Position numbers and translations under genes: made by a program. The notes below the pieces were generated by a model, which did not search any database, was not told where the DNA came from, and was given only the letters and a program-made list of their open reading frames with translations. Source: Spirosoma telluris (lineage in GTDB: Bacteria; Bacteroidota; Bacteroidia; Cytophagales; Spirosomataceae). Taken from it: DNA of 64,000 nucleotides. Shown here in pieces: positions 18,056-21,081 of the stretch; within the stretch, counting starts at the first letter, position 1; each line of letters begins with the position of its first letter. Where the stretch lies: positions 8,423,001 to 8,487,000 of the forward strand of contig QLII01000001.1 of NCBI GenBank assembly GCA_003259005.1, read 5' to 3'.

Positions 18056-18832
18056 ATGAACGTAGTCATTATTGAAGACGAAAACCTGACAGCCAAACGA
18101 CTCGAAAGTTTGCTTCATAAATACGATCCTGCCATTACTGTGTTGGCCAGGATTCCGTCGGTGGCCGAAGCCGTGACATGGTTTGATGAATCAGATCAAT
18201 CGGTTGACCTGATATTCATGGACATTCACCTCGAAGATGACCTGGGCTTCCGTATTTTCGAGCAAACACAACTGACCACGCCTGTTATTTTCACGACGGC
18301 CTACGACGAATACATGATTCAGGCCTTTAAGGTCAATAGTATCGACTATTTGCTAAAACCCATCAATTACGATGAGTTGGTCGCTGCTATCGAAAAATTC
18401 AAATCGCTGAAAAAACAGTATGGGCAGAACACGTCCTCTTCCCACGATATCGAAACGCTGCTCAATCTGATTGGTAAATCGAAACAGACCGATTATAAAG
18501 ACCGGTTTATGATTACCGTCGGTACGAAAATCCGGAGTATCGAAACCAACGATGTTGCTTATTTTTATCTGGAGGAAAAAGTCGTCTTTCTCGTCACCAA
18601 GGATGGTCTGAGCCTCCCCGTCGATTACAGTTTAGATAAGCTGACTCAGTTGCTGAATCCCCGTCAGTTCTTTCGAATTAGCCGCCAGTTCCTGGTTTCG
18701 TTAGCCGCCATTCAAACTATTCATACCTTCTCGGCAGGTAAACTCAAGCTAGACTTAGTCCCCAAATCCCGTCAGGAAGTCTTCGTTAGTGGCGACCGCA
18801 TGACGGAGTTTAAAGAGTGGCTGGGTAAGTAA
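18056..18832 (+). CDS. LytTR-family response regulator
   Basis: A 258-residue response regulator. The receiver domain (1-120) has the acidic pair in IIEDEN, the phosphoacceptor Asp56 in LIFMDIHLE, and TTAYDEYMIQAFKVNSIDYL before the LKPINY lysine. Residues 150-255 form the LytTR DNA-binding domain (IETNDVAYFYLEEKVVFLVT, FRISRQFLVSLAAIQTIHTF). It is paired with the kinase upstream. The last nine codons and the stop lie inside a 28-bp sequence that is repeated exactly at 20101-20128, on the far side of the ATPase gene, so something inserted here without damaging the C-terminus. Confidence 0.92.
   Translation: MNVVIIEDENLTAKRLESLLHKYDPAITVLARIPSVAEAVTWFDESDQSVDLIFMDIHLEDDLGFRIFEQTQLTTPVIFTTAYDEYMIQAFKVNSIDYLLKPINYDELVAAIEKFKSLKKQYGQNTSSSHDIETLLNLIGKSKQTDYKDRFMITVGTKIRSIETNDVAYFYLEEKVVFLVTKDGLSLPVDYSLDKLTQLLNPRQFFRISRQFLVSLAAIQTIHTFSAGKLKLDLVPKSRQEVFVSGDRMTEFKEWLGK
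18804..18831 (+). repeat. 28-bp direct repeat, left copy
   Basis: The exact 28-base word starting CGGAGTTTAAAGAGTGG covers the end of the LytTR gene up to the second base of its stop codon. The second copy is at 20101-20128. The bases on either side of the two copies differ. Confidence 0.95.
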
Positions 18833-18863
18833 GCTATGATTTTTGGCTTTATTCTACTTTCTG

Positions 18864-18906
18864 TAATACCGTAAATTTTAAATTTTATTTTAAATTTACG
18901 GTATTA
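18864..18906. repeat. Palindrome overlapping the ATPase start codon
   Basis: TAATACCGTAAATTT (18864-18878) and AAATTTACGGTATTA (18892-18906) are perfect 15-base arms around an AT-rich 13-base centre. The last A of the right arm is the A of the ATPase ATG. It may be an operator, an RNA hairpin masking the start, or an element end. Confidence 0.85.
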
Positions 18907-20093
18907 TGATTAGGCGATTCCTAGAAAAAGAACTTCTTGAACTGATTAGTGATAGACCTGCTGTAGCCCTTGTGGGCCCTCGGCAGGTTGGCAAAACTAC
19001 CTTAGTGCGTTCCCTCACCCCCCAATTGCCAGGAGAACCGATTTACCTTGATTTAGAGTCGAACCAGGATATAAACCGGTTACAGGAGCCGGAACTATAC
19101 CTCACGGATAGACAGGATAAGCTTGTCATTGTAGATGAAGTTCAACGAATGCCAGAATTATTCCCTTTGCTTCGTTCGCTTATTGACAGACACCGGGTCG
19201 CGGGTCGATTTGTGCTCCTGGGTTCGGCATCTCCACATCTCTTACAACAAAGTTCTGAGTCATTAGCCGGACGCATCGCCTATCTAGAACTACAACCATT
19301 GATTTGGCCTGAAGTACGTGGACAGGTAACTTACCAGCAGCATTGGCTTCGGGGAGGCTACCCTGATGTCTTACTGGCTCCCTCAGATCGTCTGGCAAAT
19401 CGACGTATGAACGATTTTATTCAAGCCTATGTAGAACGAGATTTGCCCGCTTTAGGTTTAGGTGCTTCTCCGGCGCGGGTTCGAACGTTATTATCTATGT
19501 TGGTAAGCGTTCATGCTAATCTATTAAATACCTCCGAGTTATCGCGTTCATTAGGCTTAAGTGTACCAACGGTTCAGAGCTATCTTGATTTTTTAGAGAA
19601 CGCCTTTCTAATCCGCAGACTGGCCCCCTATTTCGTTAATTTAACGAAGCGGCTGGTCAAAACACCTAAATTGTATCTGCGTGATAGCGGCATGTTTCAT
19701 ACTCTGGCGGCAATCGATAGTATAGATGTGTTGACAGGTAGTTTGTACATAGGTAGTTCCTGGGAAGGTTATGTCATTCAGCAGGTATTGGCCAGTCTAT
19801 CCTATGATACACAAGCTTATTTTTATCGAACAGCCGATGGCTCAGAGTTAGATCTTGTACTAGTGCGTGGTGGCGAACCGATAATAGGTATAGAAATTAA
19901 ATACACGAACGCGCCGAAGTTGAGCCGGGGTAACTACATTGCCAGTCGCGATTTAGGCGATATTCCTCTGCTGGTTATTACCCCCTCTGCAGAAGACTTT
20001 CGTTTGAGTGAGCAGGTCCAGATATGTAGTCTAAGTACAATCTGGCAGCATCTGATTCCATTTAAGGTAATAAGTAGCTGGTTAACTGAATAG
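18906..20093 (+). CDS. DUF4143 AAA-type ATPase with C-terminal PD-(D/E)XK-like nuclease motif
   Basis: A 395-residue protein. AAA_14 domain: Walker A GPRQVGKT at 24-31, Walker B LVIVDE at 73-78, and GSAS at 106-109. A winged-helix region lies near 200-235 (LNTSELSRSLGLSVPTVQSY). The DUF4143 part carries a nuclease-like signature: DGSELDLVLV (Glu314, Asp316) and IEIK (Glu330, Lys332). Such genes are very common in bacteria and archaea, patchy in distribution and of unknown function. This copy sits alone between two exact 28-bp repeats and starts on a palindrome, which fits a mobile or recently inserted gene. Confidence 0.88.
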   Translation: MIRRFLEKELLELISDRPAVALVGPRQVGKTTLVRSLTPQLPGEPIYLDLESNQDINRLQEPELYLTDRQDKLVIVDEVQRMPELFPLLRSLIDRHRVAGRFVLLGSASPHLLQQSSESLAGRIAYLELQPLIWPEVRGQVTYQQHWLRGGYPDVLLAPSDRLANRRMNDFIQAYVERDLPALGLGASPARVRTLLSMLVSVHANLLNTSELSRSLGLSVPTVQSYLDFLENAFLIRRLAPYFVNLTKRLVKTPKLYLRDSGMFHTLAAIDSIDVLTGSLYIGSSWEGYVIQQVLASLSYDTQAYFYRTADGSELDLVLVRGGEPIIGIEIKYTNAPKLSRGNYIASRDLGDIPLLVITPSAEDFRLSEQVQICSLSTIWQHLIPFKVISSWLTE

Positions 20094-20100
20094 CTGTTCT

Positions 20101-20128
20101 CGGAGTTTAAAGAGTGGCTGGGTAAGTA
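20101..20128 (+). repeat. 28-bp direct repeat, right copy
   Basis: An exact copy of 18804-18831, lying 7 bases after the ATPase stop codon. It does not belong to any reading frame here and is a remnant of the LytTR gene end. Confidence 0.95.
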
Positions 20129-20157: not shown

Positions 20158-21081
20158 ATGGATAATACCGACAAGCCTCGCCGACAACGCGGCCAACGTA
20201 CCGATGTCAAATTAACCGTATCGGAACCCACCGAACTGATGGCGTTTTTGACTGCTCAATTGCCCCATAAGAATCGGAATAACATCAAGTCGCTGCTCAG
20301 CAACAAGCAAATTCTGATTGACGGGAAAGTTTATACGCAATTCAATCACCCCGTAAAGCCAGGTCAGATCGTAACCGTAGCGGCTAACCGCGCTCCTCAA
20401 ACGACCCAATATCGGGGGCTTACTATTCTATACGAAGACCCAAGTATTATTGTCATTAACAAACAGGCTGGGCTGCTCTCCATGGCTACCAACAAAGAGC
20501 GGGATCGCACGGCCTACGGTATTTTAAGCGATTACCTCAAGAAAGAGAACCCTAAGAACAAAATATTCATTATCCACCGGCTCGACCGCGAGACGTCGGG
20601 CGTGATGATGTTTGCCAAGAGTGAGAAGGTACAAAAGTTAATGCAGGAATCCTGGAATGCGACCACCAAAGAGCGAACCTATGTAGCACTGGTCGAAGGC
20701 GTGCCAGAGCCGCCAACGGGTACTGTAACCTCCTTTCTGAGGGAAAGTAAAGCCCTCATTGTCTATTCGAGCCAGAATCCCGATAATGGTCAACTGGCCA
20801 TTACGAATTACTCGGTAGTAAAGACTAACAACGATTACGCTTTGCTGGAACTGGAGCTGGAAACCGGCCGCAAAAACCAGATTCGGGTGCACATGCAGGA
20901 TATTGGTCATCCTATTGTTGGCGATGCTAAATATGGCGCTACAACGGACCCCATCGGACGCCTTGGCCTGCACGCCGAAGTGCTGGCGTTTGAGCACCCT
21001 ATTACGGGCGAGGCTATGCGTTTTGAAGCCTCGATACCAAAAACGTTTTTGGGTTTGATGAAGGAAAGGGCAGAGGAATAG
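20158..21081 (+). CDS. RluA/RluD-family pseudouridine synthase
   Basis: A 307-residue enzyme that converts uridine to pseudouridine in ribosomal or transfer RNA. A basic N-terminus is followed by an S4-type RNA-binding region (about 25-80, LPHKNRNNIKSLLSNKQILI). The catalytic domain has HRLDRETSG at 140-148, with Asp143 as the catalytic aspartate, and GRKNQIRVHMQDIGHPIVGD later. The length and domain order are usual for the RluA family, but which RNA site is modified cannot be told. It converges on the GT2 gene at 21132. Confidence 0.9.
   Translation: MDNTDKPRRQRGQRTDVKLTVSEPTELMAFLTAQLPHKNRNNIKSLLSNKQILIDGKVYTQFNHPVKPGQIVTVAANRAPQTTQYRGLTILYEDPSIIVINKQAGLLSMATNKERDRTAYGILSDYLKKENPKNKIFIIHRLDRETSGVMMFAKSEKVQKLMQESWNATTKERTYVALVEGVPEPPTGTVTSFLRESKALIVYSSQNPDNGQLAITNYSVVKTNNDYALLELELETGRKNQIRVHMQDIGHPIVGDAKYGATTDPIGRLGLHAEVLAFEHPITGEAMRFEASIPKTFLGLMKERAEE

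Follow-up and report, generated by a model that had tools for sequence, protein, structure and literature searches.

The window analyzed here, a 64,000-nucleotide stretch of the Spirosoma telluris genome, carries a lone AAA_14-DUF4143 ATPase gene between a LytTR response regulator gene (lytTR) and the gene of an RluA-family pseudouridine synthase (Table 1). A word of 28 bp flanks the ATPase gene in two identical copies with a start-to-start spacing of 1297, as the first-pass annotation had described. The left copy consists of the last codons of lytTR, and the right copy starts 7 bases 3′ of the ATPase stop codon. The annotation had let the repeat cover the 3′ end of lytTR; it falls one base short of completing the lytTR stop codon. 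Between the repeats there is a single ORF of at least 80 aa, the AAA_14-DUF4143 gene, and the end of lytTR is intact, in agreement with the earlier description of a one-gene unit that preserves its host gene. The insert holds no transposase gene, and there is no integrase gene between the two repeats. Terminal inverted repeats at both ends of the insert are absent, with a palindrome on the 5′ side only, and there is no antitoxin–toxin gene pair, the repeats enclosing one gene.

Table 1 Features of the insertion site in the window.
Feature	Positions	Strand	Basis
LytTR response regulator gene, host gene with duplicated 3′ end	18056..18832	+	Pfam Response_reg and LytTR over cut-off
Left 28-bp repeat copy (last lytTR codons)	18804..18831	+	exact repeat; upstream flank matches relatives
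Insert leader of 32 bp, with the A that completes the lytTR TAA stop	18832..18863	+	sequence; empty-site comparison
Near-perfect palindrome, 20-nt arms, 3-nt loop, closing on the ATPase start-codon A; probable operator	18864..18906	+	arms 95% complementary
AAA_14-DUF4143 ATPase-nuclease gene, 395 aa, PADLOC PDC-S01	18906..20093	+	Pfam, PADLOC, AlphaFold2
Likely winged helix-turn-helix region, residues 201-235	19506..19610	+	PF01022 HTH_5 below cut-off; model helices
C-terminal PD-(D/E)XK nuclease domain (predicted), residues 278-395	19737..20090	+	domain model; McrBC matches; conservation
7-bp tail, ATPase stop to right repeat	20094..20100	+	sequence
Right 28-bp repeat copy, with the old lytTR stop and spacer after it	20101..20128	+	exact repeat; downstream flank as in the G031 and G011 empty sites
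RluA-family pseudouridine synthase gene, right neighbor	20158..21081	+	Pfam PF00849; TIGR00005 over cut-off

The 64-kb window has no other exact direct repeat of at least 20 bp whose copies lie 250 bp to 8 kb from each other. The same count over 800 kb of this genome gives 13 merged repeats, or about 1 per 62 kb. Eight of them measure 20–27 bp and five are longer, some with imperfect stretches; neither of the two that were inspected (24 bp and 52 bp) is a gene cassette. Repeats as such thus occur in this genome, but 28 exact bases lie well outside what random matching would produce.

Comparison with other species of the genus reveals the site without its insert. lytTR-like DNA is present in all 36 genus genomes, at one genome per species, so that the comparisons are between species. 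The 35 loci besides the window were fetched wide, and 34 of them have downstream DNA (none at L067; 0.8 kb at L060 and 1.2 kb at L040). In congeners G031 and G011 the sequence ...GTAAGTAG-TTCGG... runs straight into the pseudouridine synthase gene, as it does after the right copy in the window. lytTR of these two species has the same TAG stop and a spacer similar to that found 3′ of the right copy, while the left copy in the window now ends in TAA. This single-copy empty site settles that an insertion has taken place at the lytTR–pseudouridine synthase junction, as had been proposed. No DUF4143 match was found in the DNA, up to 9 kb long, 3′ of lytTR in any of the 34 congeneric loci (tblastn, E 0.01, with the window as the positive control), and of 35 loci scored the window alone has the lytTR end twice. 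Two outcomes had been named in advance as refuting an insertion, an ATPase gene at this place in all relatives and an assembly duplication. The first does not hold, as two relatives show the empty site; the second is improbable, as the ATPase gene has no second close copy in its own genome, which makes a collapsed repeat unlikely. The lytTR and pseudouridine synthase genes lie at least 584 bp apart in 18 of the 34 loci, and no other congener has the exact 28-mer (27/28 at most). A DUF4143 homolog of any kind occurs in 27 of the 36 genus genomes, which agrees with the patchy distribution noted earlier.

A decayed palindrome of the window class lies 21 bp after the lytTR stop in G023 (L035), with no ATPase gene there. 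It scores 23, against a maximum of 13 in 100 shuffles, and the next locus reaches 12. A palindrome-bearing cargo may have stood at the lytTR end in this other lineage as well; if the insertion were shared by descent, the exactness of the 28-bp copies in the window would be surprising.

The expectation that other DUF4143 genes would also have flanking repeats holds for a minority of them. We took 121 genus and family loci from the best-scoring matches, a non-random set with partly orthologous sites; 115 had a clear gene and 112 enough flank. Repeats were scored in flanks of 350 + 200 bases against a null of upstream–downstream pairs from different loci. Ten of the 112 loci pass p ≤ 0.001, where 0.11 are expected, and 11 score at least 14.5. 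Seven cases are strong (L085, L148, L104, L128, L168, L092 and the window itself, L001), or 6 of 111 if the window is left out. The four weakest (L137, L138, L185 and L172), with AT-rich, gapped or short repeats, could be chance matches. No flanking repeat is seen at the remaining 101 of 112 genes, and none at the second DUF4143 gene of the S. telluris genome (L002, 28% identity, score 9.0). The controls show none: 0 of 252 ordinary ORFs (from 35 orthologous neighborhoods and the window, and hence non-independent; Fisher p 1.6e-6) and 0 of 29 DinB genes (one of 30 fetched was dropped). In the strong cases the copies are 1.30–1.45 kb apart, so that each repeated unit is one gene, and the repeats measure 28, 39–50, 50–60, 61, 71, 135 and 148 bp. 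They lie on or next to the 3′ ends of lytTR and of glutamine synthetase, patatin-like, CitMHS-type transporter and RNase HII genes (Pfam), and otherwise at an intergenic site after a gene and at the start of one unnamed ORF.

Fixed element ends were considered and rejected, as homologs at 76–79% identity share with the window only the palindrome and the gene; the insert unit has no conserved 3′ end (both by eye). In a broad multi-phylum set (74 usable of 80 loci) seven loci pass p ≤ 0.001, of which only L313 and L297 are strong; the hit at L266 was dropped, its repeat being the palindrome of a truncated tandem DUF4143 gene. Homologs are encoded by 392 of 72,556 plasmid records and 11 of 50,697 phage records. 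Flanking repeats are absent at all eight plasmid copies examined from these 392 records. Carriage by viruses was set aside on the phage count and on the absence of one exact cross-phylum palindrome pattern from viral_contigs. DUF4143 genes are also found after glutamine synthetase in G022, G001, G007 and G035 (L218, L219, L225 and L228), and a decayed glutamine synthetase duplicate remains in G007. Sphingobium offers a candidate empty site, and G100 holds a distant partial copy.

The same host-gene ends are used by small toxin-like loci. After RNase HII, the place of a DUF4143 gene in G004, both G007 and G018 have two-gene loci of this kind; G088 has one after the patatin-like gene, the place of a DUF4143 gene in G100. 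The second genes belong to RelE (PF06296, 28.8 bits, cut-off 27) and ParE (PF05016, 42.8 bits, cut-off 23). The first genes of the pairs tested match no Pfam family, so the label “antitoxin” comes from the gene arrangement. At L192, L201 and L249, RelE/ParE-type pairs stand after RNase HII and the patatin-like gene, each with a duplicated host 3′ end. The pairs behind RNase HII in G007 and G018 are homologous but differ in the length of their duplications; the two G018 copies differ at 1 of 70 positions. Among 29 genus RelE-type loci (30 fetched, L401 dropped), nine score at least 14.5 and eight at least 22, in flanks of 380 + 220 bases that are slightly larger than those used for DUF4143. The count is 7 of 27 without L381 and L382, the loci that prompted the search, and L400, L409 and L410 reach a null p of 0.006–0.007 only. 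Surveys of the sites themselves, up to 1.5 kb downstream, cover 30 loci each for RNase HII and glutamine synthetase and find repeats at three and two of them, respectively.

At L403, another of these RelE-type loci, the repeat is the end of a carbon–nitrogen hydrolase gene. The repeat at L399 (G024), whose upstream copy has small gaps, resembles what we take to be the 5′ end of the DNA polymerase III alpha gene. L404 and L397 (wide, L452 and L453) are homologous loci in unrelated flanks with similar direct repeats of ~100 bp; the comparison indicates that the repeat here moved with the pair or is a dispersed sequence, and is not a copy of the present host end. These repeats contain a terminator-like hairpin, and a tyrosine recombinase gene neighbors L453. 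After RNase HII in G010 (L190), a suspected inverted copy turned out to be a long downstream hairpin, an inverted repeat with arms of ~40 nt; a similar hairpin lies 3′ of the duplicate in G007 (L192).

The palindrome at the ATPase start codon is a recurrent companion of these genes. An inverted repeat scoring at least 12 is found upstream of the start in 74 of 114 genus and family DUF4143 genes, compared with 11 of 114 downstream, 0 of 114 after shuffling, and 9 of 242 ordinary genes (Fisher p 1e-36 vs ordinary genes). The broad multi-phylum set gives 15 of 75, compared with 2 of 75 downstream and none after shuffling. In 41 of the 74 family genes and 18 of 28 others the palindrome is centered within the 5-base bin around −20. 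The 46 bases upstream of 77 genes from many phyla carry 10.3 bits, as opposed to 1.3 bits in the sequence beyond them (3.6 and 1.1 bits, respectively, in the family set). At the sequence level the half-sites are conserved across phyla, with the consensus TTGcAAaT...AATTgCAaGG before ATG. A genome-wide repeat is ruled out, as the window class of palindrome occurs at two places in the 36 genomes, both at ATPase genes. Inside some arms there is a TAnnTTTG, presumably promoter-like in Bacteroidota. At L266:1750-2010 a truncated DUF4143 gene stands directly before a second one, each with its own palindrome. A weak HTH_5 match (PF01022, residues 201-235, E 0.00091, 19.5 bits, below the cut-off of 22) and helices of the model in this region (189-201, 209-216 and 220-232) make it likely that the protein binds the palindrome itself. 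The palindrome is probably an operator for this helix-turn-helix and would serve putative autorepression.

The window protein matches AAA_14 with 92.4 bits (cut-off 27), DUF4143 with 148.8 bits (cut-off 28.1) and the PADLOC profile PDC-S01 with E 1.2e-90. The AlphaFold2 model of the full 395-aa protein has a pLDDT of 95.1; that of the nuclease domain has 93.8, with McrBC entries among its best matches. Residues E287, E314, D316, E330 and K332 of the domain are conserved (52 sequences), and the PD-(D/E)XK core fold with its conserved acidic residues and ExK is present. The models show a STAND-like ATPase joined to a predicted PD-(D/E)XK nuclease that is closest to McrC; the PD-(D/E)XK-like C-terminus read earlier from the letters is thereby supported by the domain model and the McrBC matches. 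By its profile the gene is a candidate anti-phage gene, and the protein probably acts as a defense or addiction module. A bolder reading would see in PDC-S01 a one-gene self-recognizing module, with the helix-turn-helix reading the palindrome for self-repression and, through the ATPase and nuclease, for processing palindrome-bearing DNA, by which the module would control how it is kept and how it spreads across phyla; we regard this as an improbable reading.

The origin of the second gene end can be addressed where the copies differ. G004 and G005 form a second empty-site pair, and both RNase HII copies of G004 share a base that is absent from its near relative G005; the extra copy in G004 thus came from the host's own lineage. 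The copies at L148 differ at 4, 1 and 22 first, second and third codon positions (22 of 27 at third positions, binomial p 4e-7) and those at L168 at 1, 2 and 8 (p 0.009). Such third-position differences argue that both copies evolved as coding sequence and that another lineage probably supplied one of them; the congeners did not single out a native copy in either pair. At L085, most rows of the comparison place the extra glutamine synthetase end at a greater distance from the congeners than the gene's own end.

A mixture of own-lineage and probably foreign-lineage copies fits the integration, by one crossover, of ligated circles bearing a gene end, whether the donor is near or far, and the different duplication lengths in G007 and G018 are as random circle joints would give. 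We therefore favor, at about even confidence, the view that the insert is a self-contained one-gene passenger that arrived in this way and did not move itself. A piece of DNA carrying a lytTR end and the ATPase gene with its palindrome would have arrived and been ligated into a circle; one recombination with the resident lytTR end would then put the cargo between two lytTR ends. The insertion step would not be encoded by the ATPase gene, as toxin-antitoxin-like pairs appear to share the route, and the protein would probably repress its own gene through the palindrome. The alternative given in the first-pass annotation, an insert bringing along its own copy of the target, comes close to this preferred view and may hold. 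In the available part of PMC3240628, an E. coli conjugation test yielded a lacZ-end duplication in 56 of 60 clones, which was attributed to circles containing a piece of the gene end that had integrated by a single crossover; the duplications measured 109–950 bp in 14 sequenced clones. Several observations count against the single crossover. Among the 34 loci there is no congener with an intact ATPase gene after lytTR that could be the donor, and the donor would have to be very close, given that the 28-mer is exact in no other congener. A stretch of 28 bp is near the lower limit for RecA-type recombination. The shared base in G004 fits a duplication of the host's own DNA equally well. The 101 of 112 DUF4143 genes and the eight of eight plasmid copies without repeats also weigh against it, as do the repeats at unrelated flanks in L404 and L397.

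A true target duplication would have a trans-acting enzyme nick the host DNA with a stagger of at least 28 bases, the cargo being joined and the gaps filled to leave two identical host copies. The identity of the copies in the window, the single difference in 70 between the RNase HII copies of G018 and the lineage-specific base shared by the G004 copies all agree with it, and long, variable duplications are described for restriction-modification (RM) genes in the available parts of PMC3031569 and PMC1643837. However, the copies at L148 and L168 differ mainly at third codon positions, the lengths vary from 28 to 148 bp in a unit without a transposase, and the unequal repeats of the homologous pairs in G007 and G018 would need repeated hits on one gene end. 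We consider target duplication possible where the copies are exact but rather unlikely overall. Homology-facilitated illegitimate recombination, or template switching, would place one junction by homology in the gene end and the other illegitimately within the resident end. It could yield both variable lengths and diverged copies, and it is reported in naturally competent bacteria (PMC3240628, available part). The outcome described for it is an insertion coupled with deletion, however, and in the E. coli test it apparently accounts for the other 4 of 60 clones against the 56 single-crossover duplications; for the window we find it unlikely.

A self-mobile gene, whose ATPase-nuclease would recognize its own palindrome and move its own gene, would explain why the palindrome has a set place at the 5′ end and keeps its half-sites across phyla, why a predicted nuclease domain is present, and why a one-gene unit lies between repeats. 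The earlier suggestion that the gene itself makes the duplication belongs here, and we have set it aside: toxin-antitoxin-like pairs without ATPase or nuclease show the same duplications at the same gene ends, the palindrome has no counterpart at the 3′ end, which is not conserved, most copies lack a repeat, and a start-codon palindrome together with a helix-turn-helix is well explained by autoregulation. Self-mobility thus appears very unlikely to us. Chance or an assembly artefact, for which the frequency of repeats of at least 20 bp in this genome might be invoked, is hardly credible in view of 28 exact bases on a gene end and an empty site in two relatives.

The freshest part of this work is the start-codon palindrome. 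The repeats mark the smallest unit that was acquired and kept, one gene with its palindrome and no partner gene, which makes tests of function simple, and the palindrome offers a concrete site for autoregulation or self-recognition. The sharing of sites with toxin-antitoxin-like pairs suggests a host recombination route for small defense or addiction genes that have no mobile element of their own, and gene-end duplications are a searchable mark of such arrivals. PDC-S01 is given as the fourth most common defense system across prokaryotes, with validation pending for most candidates of this kind, in the available part of PMC12988326. A Thermus gene with a DUF4143 domain is tabulated among genes changed by plasmid presence in PMC4406477. 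Our literature search, which covered few subscription papers, found no paper linking DUF4143 or PDC-S01 with target duplication or a start-codon palindrome.

The site is best compared with insertion with long target duplication: in both, cargo stands against an empty site between long, variable direct repeats of the target. Single-copy empty sites (G031 and G011; G004 vs G005) and variable target repeats are found here as well. That mode of insertion was reportedly described by Nobusato, Kobayashi and co-workers for the RM genes of Helicobacter pylori. The differences are that a lone PDC-S01 gene or a toxin-antitoxin-like pair takes the place of the RM genes, that species and not strains are compared, and that some copies look foreign. 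With PDC-S01 the window protein shares the profile, and an ATPase with a PD-(D/E)XK domain is also stated in the available text of PMC12988326, which in that part gives neither a mode of insertion nor a start-codon palindrome. McrBC is a further comparison for the nuclease domain, which the model places closest to McrC. The RelE/ParE-type loci of the same genus and family occupy the same host-gene ends with similar flanking duplications, but they are small two-gene loci without ATPase or nuclease. In contrast to a transposon or insertion sequence, the unit has no transposase, a duplication of variable length and a palindrome at the 5′ side only; and unlike an integrase-driven island at a gene 3′ end, it has no integrase between its repeats.
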